DNA of 64,000 nucleotides from assembly GCA_937927515.1 (NCBI GenBank), contig CALBDO010000013.1:62001-126000 (forward strand), given 5' to 3'. The stretch's first letter is position 1; every line of letters begins with the position of its first letter. The notes below the pieces were generated by a model that searched no databases, had not been told where the DNA came from, and was given only the letters and a program-made list of their open reading frames with translations. The translations under genes were made by a program, and so were the position numbers. The DNA is from Candidatus Kapaibacterium sp. (lineage in GTDB: Bacteria > Bacteroidota > Ignavibacteria > Kapaibacteriales > UBA2268). Shown piece by piece: positions 20,167-64,000 of the stretch.

Positions 20167-20982
20167 ATGAAATTTCCAAAAATTATGGGAGTAATAAACG
20201 TAACTCCAGACTCTTTTTCCGACGGAGGCTTGTTTATTAATTCAGAGGTTGCAGTTCAATGGGGTCTGGAACTACTAAGAGATGGTGCAGACATATTGGA
20301 CATTGGTGGAGAAAGCACTCGACCTGGCGCACAACCAGTAACCGTATCCGAAGAGTTAAAGAGAGTCTTACCAGTGATAGAGGGTATTAAAAAAGAAGCA
20401 CCAGATGCTATCATTTCAATAGATACGACTAAGTACGAGGTTGCCAAAGAAGCAGTTGAGTCCGGTGCCAGGATTATTAATGATGTGAGTGGATTGCAAC
20501 GTGATGTGCGCTTGGCTAATCTTGCTGCGGAGAACAATTGCACACTCGTGATTATGCATATGCAAGGTACCCCAGCAACAATGCAAAATAATCCTACTTA
20601 TCAGAATGTTGTGGAGGACATCTATAACTTTTTAGAAACTCAAATTCAGTTAGCCAAGCAAATTGGAGTGAAGTCAATTGTTGCGGACTTTGGTATAGGT
20701 TTTGGCAAGACTGTGGAACATAATTGGGAACTTCTACGCAATATACCACGCTTTTATGAACTAAATGTTCCCCTGTTGGTTGGTATTTCTCGAAAATCTT
20801 TCTTAGGAAAGACATTGAACATCGAGAATCCTATCGAAAGGGATGTGCCAACTTTAATTTTGCATACATTGCTTCTAAACTTCAATATTGATATCATACG
20901 AGTTCATAATGTTAGACAATTTAAGATTTTAAAAAAGCTATATCAGAGTCTTTATGATAACCAAGGGGCTGTTACCCGTTAG
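20167..20982 (+). CDS. folP: Dihydropteroate synthase
   Basis: Condenses 7,8-dihydropterin pyrophosphate with p-aminobenzoate in folate synthesis; the target of sulfonamides. The 271 residues show MGVINVTPDSFSDGG (pterin site, residue 7), DILDIGGESTRPGA (near 40), SIDTTKYEVA, IINDVSGL, VIMHMQGTP (near 125) and DFGIGFGKTVEHN (near 175). The C-terminus overlaps the next gene by 29 bases, so the OmpA-type gene probably shares this transcript. The length is normal for the family. Confidence 0.95.
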   Translation: MKFPKIMGVINVTPDSFSDGGLFINSEVAVQWGLELLRDGADILDIGGESTRPGAQPVTVSEELKRVLPVIEGIKKEAPDAIISIDTTKYEVAKEAVESGARIINDVSGLQRDVRLANLAAENNCTLVIMHMQGTPATMQNNPTYQNVVEDIYNFLETQIQLAKQIGVKSIVADFGIGFGKTVEHNWELLRNIPRFYELNVPLLVGISRKSFLGKTLNIENPIERDVPTLILHTLLLNFNIDIIRVHNVRQFKILKKLYQSLYDNQGAVTR

Positions 20983-22972
20983 TTGTTTATTTTTGCTATA
21001 TTTTTTTAATCTTAGCGCCGAGATACAATGGGCTTCGTACGTAATTTCCTTCTCTTCTCAACTTGGTATGAGACAGTACTCTGCTGAGCAAGCTCTCGGC
21101 GAACCCAATGTTATGCCAAATTTTGGTTTCTCTCCATGCTCTTGGACACCCAGATATATCAAGTCGAATGATGGTGAATACTTACATCTTGGATTTAATA
21201 AGCCAATTTCAGTTCGTACTATAATTATAAATTTGAACAACTCACCAGATTGTGTCGATAAAATTTTTTTACTTGATGAAAACGGAAAAAAATACCTAGT
21301 ATATCAAAAAATAGTCCTCGACCTTAGCTCTCCAAAAGGATTTCTTTTCAAAGAACTTATAGAAGTTACGACCTTTAAAGTAAAATCTATTTTAATATAC
21401 TTCAAGACTTCGATTCTTACAGATTTTCTCCAAGTTGATGCAGTTGGTATATCTTCTCAGAACGAAAAAGACTATCAAGTGAAAATCAATGAATTTTTTA
21501 TAGAATCTAGTGATTCGTATACGCCTGAAAATTTAGGACCAAATGTTAACTCTGAATATCCAGAACTTGCACCAATTGTTACACCCGATGGCAAAAGAAT
21601 ATATTTCACAAGGGAGGGGCATCCAGCAAATTTTGGAATTTCCAAGAAACAAGATATTTGGTTTTCAGACGTCGATTCTTCTGGAAATTTTCTTCCCGCA
21701 ACAATTTTACCAAAACCTATTAATAACGAGTATCACAATTTTGCTTTTGCAACTACACCGGATGGTCTGTCGCTTATAGTAGGAAATGTTTATAATCCAG
21801 ATGGTACTATGCGAAAGGGTGTATCGTTCGCTCGTTTCAATGGATACGATTGGGATTTCCCAAAAGAAATTGTTATTGATGGCTTCGAAAACCTAAATGA
21901 AAGAGGAGCCTATTTTCTGGCACTTAATGGAAGAGTGATGATTTTATCTATCGAGGGAAGCGACTCTTTTGGTGGCTTAGACCTTTATGTTAGCTTTTTA
22001 ATGGATAATGGCATATTTTCCAAGCCTGTAAACTTGGGTTCAGATATCAATACCGCTGATGACGAAACTTCACCATTCCTTGCATATGATGATGAAACTT
22101 TGTTCTTTTCTTCTGCTGGATATCCCGGCTATGGTAATTGGGATATTTTTATGACTCGACGCTTAGATAGCAGTTGGAAAAAATGGTCGAAACCAATGAA
22201 TTTGGGGAAAATAGTAAATTCCTCTAATTGGGACGCATATTTTAATATACCAGCTTCTGGGGAATTCGCATATTTTGTATCGAGTTCTAACTCCTTTGGA
22301 AAAGAAGATATCTTTCGAGTTCGCTTGCCCAAGGAACTACGCCCAAAACCAGTTGTTGTCATTTCTGGAAAGGTTTTAAACAAAAAAACAGAACAACCAC
22401 TCAAGGCTCGAATTCAATACGAGACCTTACCAGAAGGGAAAATAGTTGGTTTTACAGAATCCAATCCTCTTACTGGGGATTATAAAATTGTGTTACCCGG
22501 TGGGACTCAATATGGTTTTCATGCACAAGCTGATAGTTTTATGTCTATCAATGAAAACATTGATATTCGTTTGGACTTGCGGTACCAAGAAATTCATAGA
22601 AATCTGTACTTGGTTCCTCTTGAGGTAGGAGAAAGTATTCGTTTGAATAACATTTTTTTCGAGTACAAGGACTATCAACTTCGAACCGAATCTTTTGCTG
22701 AACTAAATAGATTAGTAAATTTAATGAAGGAAAATCCACAGTTGGTTGTCGAAATTTCTGGACATACAGATAATATAGGCTCGCCTGCATACAATTTAAA
22801 TTTGTCTTTGATGCGTGCTCGTGCTGTTGCCGATTATTTAATTTCTATGGGTATAGCTCCAGGTCGAATGATTGTGAAAGGTTACGGGGAAAAATTCCCC
22901 GTTGATTCGAATGAAACAGAAGAAGGTCGCCAATTAAATAGAAGGGTTGAATTCAAGATTTTAAAGAAGTAA
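20954..22972 (+). CDS. PorE-like outer-membrane protein: beta-propeller, CRD and OmpA domain
   Basis: A 672-residue exported protein. A signal peptide (about 1-22, no lipobox cysteine at the cleavage site) is followed by an N-terminal beta-rich domain (about 25-170, beginning WASYVISFSSQLGM). PD40/WD40-type blades (YPELAPIVTPDGKRIYFTRE and similar) span about 185-450. A carboxypeptidase-regulatory-like domain (ISGKVLNKKTEQPLKA) covers about 463-545, and an OmpA C-terminal peptidoglycan-binding domain covers 553-672. The OmpA part keeps GHTDNIGS and LSLMRARAV, with the Asp and Arg that bind diaminopimelate 15 residues apart. The propeller-CRD-OmpA order matches the T9SS component PorE, but the TPR region and lipobox are missing. 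It overlaps folP by 29 bases. Confidence 0.8.
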   Translation: MITKGLLPVSCLFLLYFFNLSAEIQWASYVISFSSQLGMRQYSAEQALGEPNVMPNFGFSPCSWTPRYIKSNDGEYLHLGFNKPISVRTIIINLNNSPDCVDKIFLLDENGKKYLVYQKIVLDLSSPKGFLFKELIEVTTFKVKSILIYFKTSILTDFLQVDAVGISSQNEKDYQVKINEFFIESSDSYTPENLGPNVNSEYPELAPIVTPDGKRIYFTREGHPANFGISKKQDIWFSDVDSSGNFLPATILPKPINNEYHNFAFATTPDGLSLIVGNVYNPDGTMRKGVSFARFNGYDWDFPKEIVIDGFENLNERGAYFLALNGRVMILSIEGSDSFGGLDLYVSFLMDNGIFSKPVNLGSDINTADDETSPFLAYDDETLFFSSAGYPGYGNWDIFMTRRLDSSWKKWSKPMNLGKIVNSSNWDAYFNIPASGEFAYFVSSSNSFGKEDIFRVRLPKELRPKPVVVISGKVLNKKTEQPLKARIQYETLPEGKIVGFTESNPLTGDYKIVLPGGTQYGFHAQADSFMSINENIDIRLDLRYQEIHRNLYLVPLEVGESIRLNNIFFEYKDYQLRTESFAELNRLVNLMKENPQLVVEISGHTDNIGSPAYNLNLSLMRARAVADYLISMGIAPGRMIVKGYGEKFPVDSNETEEGRQLNRRVEFKILKK

Positions 22973-51482: not shown

Positions 51483-51508
51483 TATTTTACAACTTGGAGT
51501 TATTGAAA

Positions 51509-54433
51509 ATGAGAAAGTTAATTTTACTTTTATTTTTATCGATAAGCAACATACTCCTCTCTCAGTACGAATATCGATTTCTTCCTCCATTAATTGATGC
51601 TGAATTTCATCACAAAAATTCCCTACAAAATATTGTTCGACCAAAGGAATTACCTCCTGCAGACCAATTTGGTAAAGGTCCAGAAAAAATATTAACTCCA
51701 GGTGGATTTCAAATAATTAATATAGTAAATGCTAGCGGTGGACAAACCGAGACATTCATTACACGACACCCATTTAATCCTAATATTATTGTTGCTGCAG
51801 CTAATGATATGAGATACAATTCACCAGCTTCTGGCTATCGAATGGCTAGCTACTATTCAACTGATGGCGGCACAACCTGGACAACCTCGCTTACGCCGAA
51901 AAATGCCGACGTTTTTATTCCAACTCCCTCCTCGGGAGGATTAACCAACGTTGACCCTGGTTTGGCTTTTGATTCTAAAGGAAACCTATATTATTCATAC
52001 ATTGTTGCTCAAGTTAGTAATGATGGCGACATTCAAGACGGAGGCGTATTTTTAAATAAATCAACCGATAACGGAAAAACGTGGAGCCAGCCAATACCAG
52101 TTTCCTACTCAGTAGGTGGTGGAAGCCAACAAGATGCACACGACAAGCCTTTTATTGCTTGTGATGCAAATCAAAATTCTCCGTTCAAAGATAGAATTTA
52201 TGTGACGTGGTTTTTAATTTCGCCTACATCTGGACCTTGCATTGGTTTTGCATACTCAACAAATGGAGAAGAATTTTCTCCAACCACAAAAATACCCGGT
52301 AGTGTTGGTTTGGGAAGTGTACAATCTCCGATGCCAATTGTTGCATCCGATGGTACATTGTATGTTGCTTGGGAAAGCAAAAGCAACAACATCACAACCA
52401 TATATGTACAAAAATCCACAACAGGTGGAACTTCTTGGGCATGGTCGAGCCCCAAGGTTGCGCAAGCAGTTGGCACCATTGGGGAAAAAGTAAATTTGCG
52501 AATGGCTTTGCCAAACAAAGGTAATATGAGGGTTTCATCGCATCCATATTTTTGCCTTGGGGATAGTCCAAATAAGTTATTCCTGGTCCAGGCTGGCAAG
52601 GACGAGAATGGAAAATATAGGATATACTTCGCCAAATCCACAAATGGTGGTGAGACATGGCTCAATAGAATAAGAGTAGACGACAACCCTTATGGTAATG
52701 ATATGTTCTTCCCCGCAATTGCTTACGACCCAACATCGAAAATTCTTGCTGTTGCTTATTACTCATCCCAAATGGATGCTAATAACAAAGCGGTTGATTT
52801 ATTTGTTTCTGTCTCAACAGATGAAGGTGCTACTTGGAAAAGCATTCGAGTCACACCCAATTCCTGGTTCCTCAATCACTCAAATGCTGTCATCGATGCT
52901 GGCGGAGCCTCGCTTGGTAGGTATTGGGGAGATTACCTTTCGATGATTGCTTATGATGGAAAAATCATACCTTGCTTTTGGATGCCAAACTCTCCTCAAG
53001 GAACATTTTATTCAAACAATGCTTACATTGCGATTTTAACCACTTCACCCAAACCGCCCGAAAATTTAACTTACATCAACACATACCAAGAGCCAAATAA
53101 AATTATCCTGAGATGGAAAGACCCAAAAGAAAACCAGTTGGGTGGACCCATCTCTGATTTTAAAATAGCTATTTATAAAGAATCCGCGAAGATTGCAGAA
53201 GTTGCAAAAGGTGTAGAGGAATTTGTATATACTAATTTGCAAGATGGCGAGACTTTTACTTTTGGATTGAAGACTATTGACGACAAAAATATGGAAAGTC
53301 CACTCGTTACTATTTCTGGGGTAGCTGGCGGGGCTTTGCAACCATTCCCGCCATCGATTATCTCTGCCAAACCACACCAAGATGGTGTGTTATTGACATG
53401 GCAAAACCCTGGTTATCATATTGACAGTTCATATTTCCACGATTACGAAACTCTCGAAATCTTTTCTGGTGATGAAAAAGTTTACTCCATTGAAAAAACA
53501 AATCTTATGACTGGTCTTGAACAAACCTTACTTATTCCTCTTCCAACGAAGAAATTTTACAAGTTGAAGATACGCGCTGTTGGTAAAAGGGGCGAGAAGC
53601 AGACACCGAGTGAATTCTCCCCCGCTGTGTTGGCATATTCTGGTGCACCATTGACAACTTTGAGTGAAAACTTTGACGACCTCACCAATTTAATACCTTT
53701 TTATACTGATGGTACAACTGATAAATGGGGCATAACTAATAAAGCTTCGTTCTCGCCACCTAATTCTTTAACCGACTCGCCATTGGGAGATTATAAACCA
53801 AAATCGGAAAACTATGTAATTATCGCCCCCGTTGTTCCAAAGGCTCCCAATTTGTCATTGTCTTTTGAACATATTGCAATAATTGATAGCTCTGGGGATG
53901 TTGGGGTAATTAGCATCTCCAGAGACTTTTGCAAAACTTGGACAGATATTGCTTGGATTGATATGCGACGCTCTTCAGATTTCAAGGATAACGTAGCCGA
54001 TAGTAAATGGTACACCGAAAGCCGCAGTCTTGCTGAGTTTGAAAATGATACTATTTTCATAAAGTTTACACTTATCTCCAACCCTCTGAAAAACAAAGAT
54101 GGTTGGTACATTGATAATCTACGACTGGATAATAGTATAAACAAAGTTGATGAAATTGTAGTAGGCGATAATATCTCTGAATTCGAGGTTTTTCCCAATC
54201 CGTCTAATACATCATCATGGATAAATATCGCGCTTCAAAGACCTTCGACTATTTCAATTGAGATAAGAGATATTTTTGGAAAAGTTATCGATGAAATTGT
54301 CGAATCTACGCATTTGAGTGCTGGAAGATTTAATTTCACCTTGGATTTAGCTGACTATCCCAATGGAATTTTCTTCGTCTATGTAAAGGCAGCATCGGAA
54401 GTTAAAACCAAACCGATTATTGTTATTAAGTGA
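51509..54433 (+). CDS. T9SS cargo protein with Asp-box (BNR) propeller and FN3-like domains
   Basis: 974 residues. A signal peptide (MRKLILLLFLS..., cleavage near LLSQ) is followed by a beta-propeller of about 70-500 with at least five Asp-boxes (STDGGTTW, STDNGKTW, STTGGTSW, STNGGETW, STDEGATW). Two FN3-type domains come next (about 510-700), then a MAM/jelly-roll-like domain (SENFDDLTNLIPFY onwards). A canonical type A T9SS sorting domain closes the protein (FEVFPNPS, then YPNGIFFVYVK). Asp-boxes occur in sialidases, but the catalytic Arg triad and Tyr are not evident, so I would not call it an enzyme. Secreted to the surface. Its end overlaps the following frame. Confidence 0.88.
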   Translation: MRKLILLLFLSISNILLSQYEYRFLPPLIDAEFHHKNSLQNIVRPKELPPADQFGKGPEKILTPGGFQIINIVNASGGQTETFITRHPFNPNIIVAAANDMRYNSPASGYRMASYYSTDGGTTWTTSLTPKNADVFIPTPSSGGLTNVDPGLAFDSKGNLYYSYIVAQVSNDGDIQDGGVFLNKSTDNGKTWSQPIPVSYSVGGGSQQDAHDKPFIACDANQNSPFKDRIYVTWFLISPTSGPCIGFAYSTNGEEFSPTTKIPGSVGLGSVQSPMPIVASDGTLYVAWESKSNNITTIYVQKSTTGGTSWAWSSPKVAQAVGTIGEKVNLRMALPNKGNMRVSSHPYFCLGDSPNKLFLVQAGKDENGKYRIYFAKSTNGGETWLNRIRVDDNPYGNDMFFPAIAYDPTSKILAVAYYSSQMDANNKAVDLFVSVSTDEGATWKSIRVTPNSWFLNHSNAVIDAGGASLGRYWGDYLSMIAYDGKIIPCFWMPNSPQGTFYSNNAYIAILTTSPKPPENLTYINTYQEPNKIILRWKDPKENQLGGPISDFKIAIYKESAKIAEVAKGVEEFVYTNLQDGETFTFGLKTIDDKNMESPLVTISGVAGGALQPFPPSIISAKPHQDGVLLTWQNPGYHIDSSYFHDYETLEIFSGDEKVYSIEKTNLMTGLEQTLLIPLPTKKFYKLKIRAVGKRGEKQTPSEFSPAVLAYSGAPLTTLSENFDDLTNLIPFYTDGTTDKWGITNKASFSPPNSLTDSPLGDYKPKSENYVIIAPVVPKAPNLSLSFEHIAIIDSSGDVGVISISRDFCKTWTDIAWIDMRRSSDFKDNVADSKWYTESRSLAEFENDTIFIKFTLISNPLKNKDGWYIDNLRLDNSINKVDEIVVGDNISEFEVFPNPSNTSSWINIALQRPSTISIEIRDIFGKVIDEIVESTHLSAGRFNFTLDLADYPNGIFFVYVKAASEVKTKPIIVIK

Positions 54434-61173: not shown

Positions 61174-61883
61174 TGGAATTGGATTTTTTATCACTTACAA
61201 GAAAGTATCCATTTCCAGAGAAAAGACCTCGCCATCACGTAGCTCCATATCTTTATGTTCCTTACGTAAAGTTAAAAGTGGTCCCGCAAAATTATCCACT
61301 TCCTATTAGTTCTTTAGATTGGACAAAAGTTTTTCAAAATGGTAAGTCACCAGATTTTTTGGACATTGGAACTGGTAGAGGTTGGTTTTTATTACAAATT
61401 GCTGTTTTAAATCCAGAAAAAAACATTTTAGGTATCGAAATTCGCAAAAACTGCGTAGATTGGTTGGAAATGGTCATCAGAGGGGAAAAGATTCAAAATG
61501 CTGGAATACTTTGGTATAATGTATTAAATGGTTTAAATTTTGTAGAGGATAAAAGTTTAGAAGCAGTTTACTACTTGTTTCCCGACCCTTGGCCAAAATC
61601 AAAACACGAGAAAAGGAGAGCGATGACCAAGGAAACGTTGGGAGAGTTAATTAATAAGTTAAAGGTGGGTGGTTCAATCTTCTTTGCAACCGATTTATTG
61701 GAGATACACAAATTCCATTTGACATTGTTGAAGGAGTTTGAAACTATTGTTAGTTGCAAGGAAGTTCCTTCTCAACAAAGCTGGGATTTACCGGCTACTA
61801 ACAAAGAATTGAGCTGTATTCGTCGCGGTGTAAATTTTTATAGAATTATAGCTACCAAAGTGACGGAAATATTACCTACTTGA
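61173..61883 (+). CDS. trmB: tRNA (guanine46-N7)-methyltransferase TrmB
   Basis: Makes m7G46 in tRNA. 236 residues with SAM motif FLDIGTGRGWFLLQIA (near residue 64), GIEIRKNCVDW, and the characteristic YYLFPDPWPKSKHEKRRAM (near 135). The start ATG overlaps the mlaE stop as TGATG at 61171-61175. The N-terminal 60 residues are longer than in E. coli TrmB. It is tail to tail with the OmpA-type gene, overlapping by 8 bases. Confidence 0.93.
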   Translation: MELDFLSLTRKYPFPEKRPRHHVAPYLYVPYVKLKVVPQNYPLPISSLDWTKVFQNGKSPDFLDIGTGRGWFLLQIAVLNPEKNILGIEIRKNCVDWLEMVIRGEKIQNAGILWYNVLNGLNFVEDKSLEAVYYLFPDPWPKSKHEKRRAMTKETLGELINKLKVGGSIFFATDLLEIHKFHLTLLKEFETIVSCKEVPSQQSWDLPATNKELSCIRRGVNFYRIIATKVTEILPT

Positions 61884-62592
61884 GTTTAACGATTTTAATA
61901 TAAGTAGTTCCAATGTATCTTTTTCCTTTAGCTCTTTTTTCAAGTGGTGGTGGATTTAGAGGGTCGGGTTCACTATTGCCACGAATTCTTATTCGTTCTG
62001 GTTCAACACCTTTGGAAATAAAGTAAGCCATTAAAGATTTTGCTCTTTCTTCTGTTAATTTCAAGTTTTCGTCTTTCGAGCTAGCCTTGTCTGGATAACA
62101 TATGATTTCGAAAACAGAATTTTTTTGTGTTGAGAACTCTTTTGCAAATGGTTCTAAATAAACCTCGGCTCCAAATCTGATTTTTGTTTTATTTAATTCA
62201 AACGGAGGTACAGTAATAGGAATACTACTACCTTCTGCAAAAGGTATTAAAGCAAAATCTTTGGAATATTCTAAATACTGGGAACTCTGTGGTATATTTA
62301 ATTCATAAACTTCTTTAAGATAGCCAGGCTGCTCGACAACAATGTTGTATCTTTGTCCAGGTTTAAGGCCAGTGAGAAAATAATAACCATTATCAGATGC
62401 ATTACTCCTTGCAGAGTTTACTTTACGGTTTTGTTGGTCATAAGCAGTAACATAGGTAGTCATTGGCTCTTTTGTGATAGCATTCTTTACGGTGCCACTA
62501 ATAGAAACAACAACATTTGTAAATTGAGCATTTATTTTCACACTTATCGAAAGTAGTAAAATTAATGTTGAGAAAAACGCAAGCGTTCTCAT
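61876..62592 (-). CDS. Exported CRD-OmpA protein
   Basis: 238 residues. A signal peptide (about 1-22, ending INAQ, no lipobox) is followed by a carboxypeptidase-regulatory-like beta-sandwich (SISGTVKNAITKEPMTTYVTA, about 30-105). A divergent OmpA C-terminal domain (about 125-238) follows. The usual GHTD is CYPD and the NRRVE end is lost, but the Asp and the Arg 15 residues later (in LTEERAKSL) that bind diaminopimelate are kept. It overlaps the WD40 gene as ATGA, so the two are coupled. It may anchor the propeller protein to peptidoglycan (inference). Confidence 0.8.
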   Translation of the reverse strand: MRTLAFFSTLILLLSISVKINAQFTNVVVSISGTVKNAITKEPMTTYVTAYDQQNRKVNSARSNASDNGYYFLTGLKPGQRYNIVVEQPGYLKEVYELNIPQSSQYLEYSKDFALIPFAEGSSIPITVPPFELNKTKIRFGAEVYLEPFAKEFSTQKNSVFEIICYPDKASSKDENLKLTEERAKSLMAYFISKGVEPERIRIRGNSEPDPLNPPPLEKRAKGKRYIGTTYIKIVKLK

Positions 62593-63590
62593 TTGTTTCC
62601 TCCTTTTTGTTTTGGTTCTTTGGTTTTACCGGTGGATTTAGTCAAAAATCTTACTGTTCCATCTGCGCAGCCAATAATTATTAGTGAAGCGTCGGACACA
62701 AGGTCTACAGACCAAATCTCAACACCTGAATTTAACGCGAAAAGATTTTTGCCAGTATCAACATTCCATAGCTTTACAAATTTATCTAAACTTGCACTTA
62801 CAAGCGTTAGGTTATCTTCGGCAAATGAAATGTCTTGAATCAAGTCGTCGTGTGCCTTGATTCTACGTAGCATTTTTCCTTTGGGCAATTCCCAAATGAT
62901 GATTTCACCAGTTTGGTCGCAAGATGCTAATTTTTTTGAGTCGAAGGAATATATCACACTCAAGACTGGAGCATTATGCCCAACGAGAGTCATAATTGGT
63001 TCTTGGCTAGTTAAATCTGTAGACCAAATTTTGATTGTTTTATCATCACTGCAAGAAGCAATCGTTTTCCCATCGTAACTATATGCTACATTGTTTATTG
63101 GGGCTGTATGGCCCCGAAGAGTTTTAATCTCAATCCCTTGTCTCCAGTCCCAAAGTTTTATTGTGTTGTCGAAGCTTGTACTTGCCACAAACATCGAGCT
63201 ATCATCCTGGCTAAAATAAACCCCAATAACTTGGTCTGTATGCCCACGTAGTACTTTCAAAAGCTCGCCCGTTTCGACATCCCATATCCTAACTGTTTGG
63301 TCGGAGGAACCCGATGCAAGATATAAATCGTTTCCAGAGAAGGAAACATTATTAACTTGTCCTAAATGGCCACGCAAGGTGCGTAGCTCGGTTCCATCTG
63401 GTAAACTCCAAATTTTAATTGTCTCGTCGAGGCTACAAGTTGCTACTTTTGTATTTGCTTCGTTTACAAAAACACCAAGTACTTCGTCCTCGTGCGAGCC
63501 AACTATTCTCGTATCATACTTTAGTGTACTTTGGGAGTAAAGCAAATTCAACGAAACAGCTGTAAATAGCATAAAAATAAGAGTTCTCAT
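62589..63590 (-). CDS. Exported seven-bladed WD40 protein
   Basis: 333 residues. A signal peptide (MRTLIFMLFTAVSL, cleavage near LLYSQ) is followed by seven WD40 repeats filling the rest. Typical blades read LRGHLGQVNNVSF, SSDQTVRIWDVETG, LRGHTAPINNVAY and SDDKTIKIWS. ATG 63590 was chosen because it starts the signal peptide; a further in-frame ATG at 63632 would overlap the MerR gene. True GH-WD repeats this regular are unusual in an exported bacterial protein. It is 38 bases downstream of the MerR-type gene and coupled to the CRD-OmpA gene. Confidence 0.85.
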   Translation of the reverse strand: MRTLIFMLFTAVSLNLLYSQSTLKYDTRIVGSHEDEVLGVFVNEANTKVATCSLDETIKIWSLPDGTELRTLRGHLGQVNNVSFSGNDLYLASGSSDQTVRIWDVETGELLKVLRGHTDQVIGVYFSQDDSSMFVASTSFDNTIKLWDWRQGIEIKTLRGHTAPINNVAYSYDGKTIASCSDDKTIKIWSTDLTSQEPIMTLVGHNAPVLSVIYSFDSKKLASCDQTGEIIIWELPKGKMLRRIKAHDDLIQDISFAEDNLTLVSASLDKFVKLWNVDTGKNLFALNSGVEIWSVDLVSDASLIIIGCADGTVRFLTKSTGKTKEPKQKGGNK

Positions 63591-63628
63591 AAAAAAATCC
63601 CTGTTTACTGTATGTGAAAATAAAAAAA

Positions 63629-64000
63629 TCATAAATTTTTCACAATTTCCAATATCGTATTTAGTCTTTTTCGAATTTCTTTGAGAATTATTTTATTTGT
63701 AGTATCTAAATTGAATAAACTTAACTCATTTCTTGTAAAATTACCCTTAGACTTAGCTTTTTTTTGGGCTTTATTTTGATTGGTTTTGATTTGTACATCA
63801 AAAATTTTATAAAGTTCTTCGAGAGCACCTTTAGGTGATAGTTTTTGCTCCCGAAGTAGCGACTTTATTGTTAGAACCAATTTCAAGTCCTTTTCGGAAT
63901 ATATTCTATTACCAGCTCGATTCTTCTTGGGTCGAAGAAGTGGAAATTCCTTTTCCCAATATCTTAGTACGTGTTGGGGTTCCCCAACTATTTTCGAAAT
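63629..64000 (-). CDS. MerR-family regulator, N-terminus cut by the window edge
   Basis: The C-terminal 123 residues are visible. The first part (63887-64000) reads as a MerR helix-turn-helix: VGEPQHVLRYWEKEFPLLRP, then NRIYSEKDLKLV. A Lys-rich linker (NKAQKKAKSKGNF) and a C-terminal dimerisation helix (RKRLNTILEIVKNL) follow. No cysteine metal site is visible in this part. The true start lies beyond base 64000. Probably controls the WD40-OmpA pair downstream (inference). Confidence 0.82.
   Translation of the reverse strand: MSKIVGEPQHVLRYWEKEFPLLRPKKNRAGNRIYSEKDLKLVLTIKSLLREQKLSPKGALEELYKIFDVQIKTNQNKAQKKAKSKGNFTRNELSLFNLDTTNKIILKEIRKRLNTILEIVKNL

Follow-up and report, generated by a model that had tools for sequence, protein, structure and literature searches.

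An exported WD40 propeller and a CRD-OmpA protein as a conserved gene pair, a two-gene variation on PorE and TolB/Pal themes

The window, that is the whole 64,000-nucleotide stretch analysed here (G000:C13:62001-126000), comes from a genome of 2.39 Mb, one of whose close relatives is a MAG labelled Candidatus Kapaibacterium, a genus assigned by NCBI to the Bacteroidota, class Eximiradiia. The window ends in three minus-strand genes encoding a MerR-type regulator, a WD40 propeller, and a protein with CRD and OmpA domains, raising the question of whether these constitute a single MerR-controlled envelope system and a divided form of PorE, as the initial annotation proposed, or a unit of another kind. 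The relevant features are as follows.

61876–62592, minus strand: exported CRD-OmpA protein, 238 residues (open reading frame, Pfam CarboxypepD_reg and OmpA, NCBIfam)
61945–62202, minus strand: OmpA_C-like domain of this protein, residues 131–216, with a putative DAP pocket (Pfam, VIA, residue conservation)
62293–62505, minus strand: CRD (CarboxypepD_reg) domain, residues 30–100 (Pfam; beta-sandwich in the AlphaFold2 model)
62527–62592, minus strand: predicted Sec signal peptide of the CRD-OmpA protein, residues 1–22 (ending INA, before Q), no lipobox (heuristic)
62599–62605, minus strand: strong Shine-Dalgarno sequence AAGGAGG for CRD-OmpA (sequence)
62589–63632, minus strand: WD40 open reading frame, likely start at the ATG at 63590
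62589–63590, minus strand: exported seven-bladed WD40 propeller, 333 residues (Pfam WD40 8e-59, model, PDB folds)
63528–63590, minus strand: predicted Sec signal peptide of the WD40 protein, approximately residues 1–21 (heuristic)
63629–64000, minus strand: MerR-type regulator, truncated by the window end, a neighbour outside the pair (Pfam MerR_1; found across the phylum and kept without the pair)
L002:5629–6030, minus strand: complete merR, start MQKLYYS
20954–22972, plus strand: single-chain PorE-like PD40-CRD-OmpA protein, outside the unit and listed for comparison only (PF07676, PF00691)

Coordinates and sequence agree with the gene order merR, WD40, CRD-OmpA first read from this DNA, with 38 bases separating the MerR stop from the WD40 ATG, and the WD40 stop overlapping the CRD-OmpA start in an ATGA. 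The sequence AAGGAGG lies 6 bases ahead of the latter ATG, and through this overlap and strong Shine-Dalgarno sequence WD40 and CRD-OmpA are translationally coupled.

The match of the second protein to Pfam WD40 (PF00400, 8e-59) is borne out by its AlphaFold2 model (pLDDT 93), in which 28 strands form seven four-stranded blades, as in a canonical seven-bladed WD40 protein, and for which the top PDB folds in a Foldseek search are seven-bladed WD40 proteins, e.g. WDR5. A simple heuristic additionally finds a Sec-type signal without a lipobox at the cleavage site, with both hydrophobic core and site conserved in homologues, so that the Pfam match, the model and the signal all agree with the initial description of a signal-peptide-bearing seven-bladed propeller. 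Mean column identity amounts to 69% for the WD40 protein, compared with 46% for its CRD-OmpA partner, an unusually high conservation that would be expected of a protein with conserved contacts.

The CRD and OmpA_C domains of the third protein are likewise upheld, with CarboxypepD_reg scoring 34.5 bits (Pfam cut-off 32.3) and OmpA 41.3 bits (gathering cut-off 27.2). The fold of the C-terminal domain in the AlphaFold2 model (pLDDT 89) is also that of an OmpA domain, with VIA-align giving Z 14.2 against the OmpA domain 5wtl (rmsd 2.8, 115 aligned), Z 13.2 against Pal in 2hqs (rmsd 2.2, 105 aligned), and Z 12.6 against PorE 6top (rmsd 3.1, 119 aligned). A Sec-type signal with a hydrophobic core and an AXA-type site is present in all alignment rows, again without a lipobox under the simple heuristic. 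Both proteins are thus predicted from sequence to be exported by a Sec-type signal, and neither to be lipidated.

In P. gingivalis PorE the bound peptide is held by Asp576, Asn584, and Arg591, and is contacted by Phe541 (PMC7192894). The equivalent putative pocket residues here are F131, D168, N176, and R183, the last three of which reproduce the Asp-x7-Asn-x6-Arg spacing of PorE exactly, D168 and R183 standing 15 residues apart. F131, D168, and R183 are each present in 49 of 49 paired homologues, and N176 in 38 of the 49, being replaced in family f3, in most of the compared f4 proteins, and in one f2 protein, so that the pocket may be relaxed in these. The OmpA domain was initially described as degenerate yet retaining the DAP-binding Asp/Arg pair, and the invariance and spacing of D168 and R183 confirm this. 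Of the usual OmpA_C motifs, LSxxRAxxVxxxL is kept as LTEERAKSLMAYF, and the C-terminal NRRV is replaced by the family motif KGKRYIGTTY. The split CRD-OmpA proteins share an invariant D...PP...Y.G within NPPPxxKxAKGKRYIG, which is absent from single-chain proteins. With its PorE-like pocket, the CRD-OmpA protein is likely to bind the cell wall.

The pairing of the two genes was surveyed in 99 genomes of the order, with membership assigned on scores reaching E-values of up to 5e-86 for WD40 and up to 2e-49 for CRD-OmpA, and with family and genus labels (f1, g6, and so on) being those of the survey tool. WD40 genes occur at 79 places in 73 of the 99 genomes, and at 78 of these places CRD-OmpA follows directly in the same orientation. 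The gap between the two matches is mostly below 100 bases, and 188–488 in nine cases, including family f4, where at the two loci read the two genes are separated by one for a small CRD-only protein that is exported and has a Lys-rich tail (L092:9237, minus strand; L093:9053–9466, plus strand). No genome among the 99 clearly carries one family but not the other, the sole genome having CRD-OmpA without WD40 (G255) being an 85%-complete assembly in which the CRD-OmpA frame is only partial. The empty sites are equally informative. The order rodA-merR-WD40-CRD-OmpA-efp-accB is found in family f3 (G059, G101), and its core also in G264 and G144, which belong to genus g6; five further g6 genomes instead read merR-efp-accB, with exactly the two genes missing and rodA ahead where the contig reaches. 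WD40 and CRD-OmpA are accordingly a two-gene cassette, present or absent together between merR and efp in g6, and across the order the pair is a real unit, inherited and lost together. The conservation of the pair in related genomes, on which the initial annotation had staked its reading, is thereby established.

Five genomes carry the pair twice, the second time without merR; five f1 genomes with the pair also encode a lone CRD-OmpA paralogue (L109, L111, L112, L113, L114); and a lone second WD40 copy in G276 (L110) lies upstream of a gene for a 430-residue protein, porin-like by eye. The g106 copies are sisters in the WD40 tree and stand apart in the CRD-OmpA tree, and since the trees disagree on the age of this pair duplication, tree congruence was dropped as evidence of co-duplication. 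In families f4, f42, and f45 (L092, L093, L094, L104, L105) the pair is followed by a gene for an FAD amine-oxidase-like protein (c4) of about 520 residues with a Tat signal and a cysteine in the signal region; no such neighbour lies beside the pair in the window's genome. Across a sample of 198 genomes from the phylum, no member of the split family turned up outside this order.

On balance, we lean towards the pair being a peptidoglycan-anchored two-protein periplasmic scaffold with a TolB-Pal-like logic. The OmpA domain would bind meso-DAP stem peptides via its Phe/Asp/Asn/Arg pocket as in PorE, with the CRD serving as a spacer or docking domain, and the propeller would dock on the CRD-OmpA protein and so be held at the cell wall, providing a rigid scaffold for an envelope partner. 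The TolB-Pal logic would then have been built from a PorE-type CRD-OmpA half and an unrelated canonical WD40 propeller. A complex between the two proteins is probable, with the interface deduced purely from the gene pairing, whilst T9SS and outer-membrane stability are each a rather unlikely destination for it. Counting against a scaffold are the failure to find an outer-membrane anchor, unlike in Pal or PorE, the lone CRD-OmpA paralogues and lone WD40 copy, the N176 replacements, and the discordance of the gene trees over the g106 duplication.

The initial annotation overlooked TolB-Pal, the classic pair of separate propeller and OmpA-domain genes. In tolB-pal, a separate propeller gene is followed by the gene for an OmpA-domain protein, and at 78 of the 79 places described above the propeller gene likewise directly precedes the OmpA-domain gene. 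TolB itself (TIGR02800) has no match above the family cut-off in any of the 41 order genomes searched, the window's included, and a paper from 2025 interprets PorE as a fused, compact Tol-Pal and predicts further tethering systems (PMC12204202). The pair fits this prediction in outline, minus the lipid anchor. It could accordingly be a Tol-Pal substitute that stabilises the outer membrane or aids constriction during division in a lineage without TolB. We consider this unlikely, however, as the CRD-OmpA protein lacks a lipid anchor with which it could reach the outer membrane, the propeller is a seven-bladed WD40 rather than the six-bladed propeller and N-terminal domain of TolB, no TolQRA genes were noticed in the pair neighbourhoods read, and the pair is missing from about a quarter of the order. 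Still less probable is a fuller version, in which the WD40/CRD-OmpA complex would be an order-specific outer-envelope tethering or constriction machine doing the work of Tol-Pal without TolB, assembled independently from a cytosolic-type WD40 protein and a wall-binding PorE-type half.

The pair might instead be a T9SS accessory that, like PorE in the current view, anchors or docks the secretion machinery to peptidoglycan, PorE being the nearest NCBIfam model to the CRD-OmpA protein. The window encodes a large exported protein at 51494–54433 (plus strand) whose T9SS type A sorting domain (TIGR04183) scores 30.8 bits against a cut-off of 23, indicating that T9SS substrates exist in this genome, and the T9SS translocon SprA is found in 98 of the 99 order genomes. 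SprA is, however, equally present with or without the pair, and T9SS therefore does not require it; an obligatory T9SS part is ruled out. The sprA gene lies near the pair in G276 and G263, and near merR-rpoZ without the pair in G280 (L089, L090, L091). The vicinity of sprA, merR-rpoZ, and the pair is possibly an ancestral neighbourhood, albeit a statistically weak one, and the proximity of about 10 kb in the two related genomes was judged a weak linkage, involving 2 of 73 loci in one family, with merR-rpoZ-sprA also occurring in a pair-less genome. As most loci lack an adjoining T9SS gene, and the genomes also carry single-chain PorE-like proteins (E below 1e-60 in 60 of the 99, none above the family cut-off), a T9SS role has about the same low likelihood as a Tol-Pal one.

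The description of the locus as a split PorE holds for one half only. The best NCBIfam match of the CRD-OmpA protein is PorE (NF052230), over positions 423–599 of 648, but at 46.1 bits against a cut-off of 600 it is no member of the PorE family. It also matches the window's own single chain (20954–22972) with E 8e-13 across CRD and OmpA, and is, by sequence comparison, a relative of PorE-type chains in their C-terminal half. That single chain, which by eye directly follows a folP-like (dihydropteroate synthase) gene, scores 229 bits for NF053607 and 186 bits for NF052230, both below cut-off. This homology, together with the order of propeller, CRD, and OmpA across the two genes, is what would be expected had an ancestral PorE gene been broken in two. 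The propeller nevertheless belongs to WD40 (PF00400) and not PD40, with BLASTP giving no meaningful match between it and the PD40 repeats of the genome's PorE-like chain; the TPR and lipid anchor are missing; and in the tree the split CRD-OmpA proteins group as a single clade, separate from every single chain sampled. No single chain combining WD40 (PF00400), CRD, and OmpA was found among the loci examined. Propeller family, BLASTP, and tree together led to the rejection of a PorE gene fission as very improbable, and with a homologous CRD-OmpA half and an unlike propeller the pair shares the domain logic of PorE without being PorE cut in two.

Least credible of all is the three-gene envelope system under MerR control that was first proposed. 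Although merR is directly upstream of the pair in 63 of 73 genomes, MerR occurs in 98 of the 99 order genomes, including all 26 that lack WD40, does not accompany several second copies of the pair, and has relatives in 93 of 99 genomes across the phylum, whereas a dedicated regulator would be confined to, and co-inherited with, its targets. The order rodA-merR-efp is kept where the pair is absent, and in several f1 genomes merR is divergent from rpoZ whether the pair follows or not. The palindrome anticipated upstream of merR did not materialise, with no conserved palindrome or inverted repeat evident when five close relatives were aligned, and promoter-like matches there not exceeding those in shuffles. 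Phyletic and empty-site data thus rule out a dedicated regulator; MerR is a separate housekeeping neighbour, and its spread and retention leave conditional expression of the pair unsupported.

The preferred reading, a wall-anchored two-protein scaffold, bears on how the outer membrane is attached to the wall without Tol-Pal in bacteria of the Bacteroidota group, in which PorE has lately been suggested to replace it in fused form (PMC12204202). With the propeller and the wall-binding protein separate yet strictly paired, the module would be a two-part version of this idea, and its pieces can be purified and tested one by one, including for the partner of the propeller, be it T9SS or an outer-membrane tether. 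It would also mean that a canonical WD40 propeller is exported to the periplasm, where a candidate partner can be named. The nearest WD40 sequences outside the order, among those read, are cytosolic proteins of other Bacteroidota, which are also seven-bladed PF00400 propellers but have neither a signal peptide nor a CRD-OmpA partner.

Compared with PorE (PG1058, NF052230), the pair has the same succession of CRD and OmpA_C, the Asp-x7-Asn-x6-Arg pocket (with the Asn lost in some families), and a propeller encoded ahead of these. PorE itself, however, is one lipoprotein chain uniting TPR, a five-bladed PD40 propeller, CRD, and OmpA, whereas the pair comprises two proteins without a TPR, with a canonical seven-bladed WD40, and, as neither family shows a lipobox at the cleavage site under the heuristic, without N-terminal lipidation. 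The CHU_0125-type proteins (NF053607), present in the same genome, share the CRD-OmpA C-terminal half, yet are single chains with a PD40 propeller and a canonical OmpA C-terminus in place of the D...NPPP...KGKRYxG motif of the split family. With TolB-Pal, the pair has in common that a periplasmic propeller and an OmpA-domain protein are separate and encoded in the same order, but TolB is a six-bladed propeller with an N-terminal domain, and Pal a lipoprotein without a CRD, whereas the CRD-OmpA protein possesses a CRD and a Sec signal without a lipobox. Literature searches returned no description of such a WD40/CRD-OmpA pair, a two-gene variation on the PorE and TolB/Pal themes that had not been named before.
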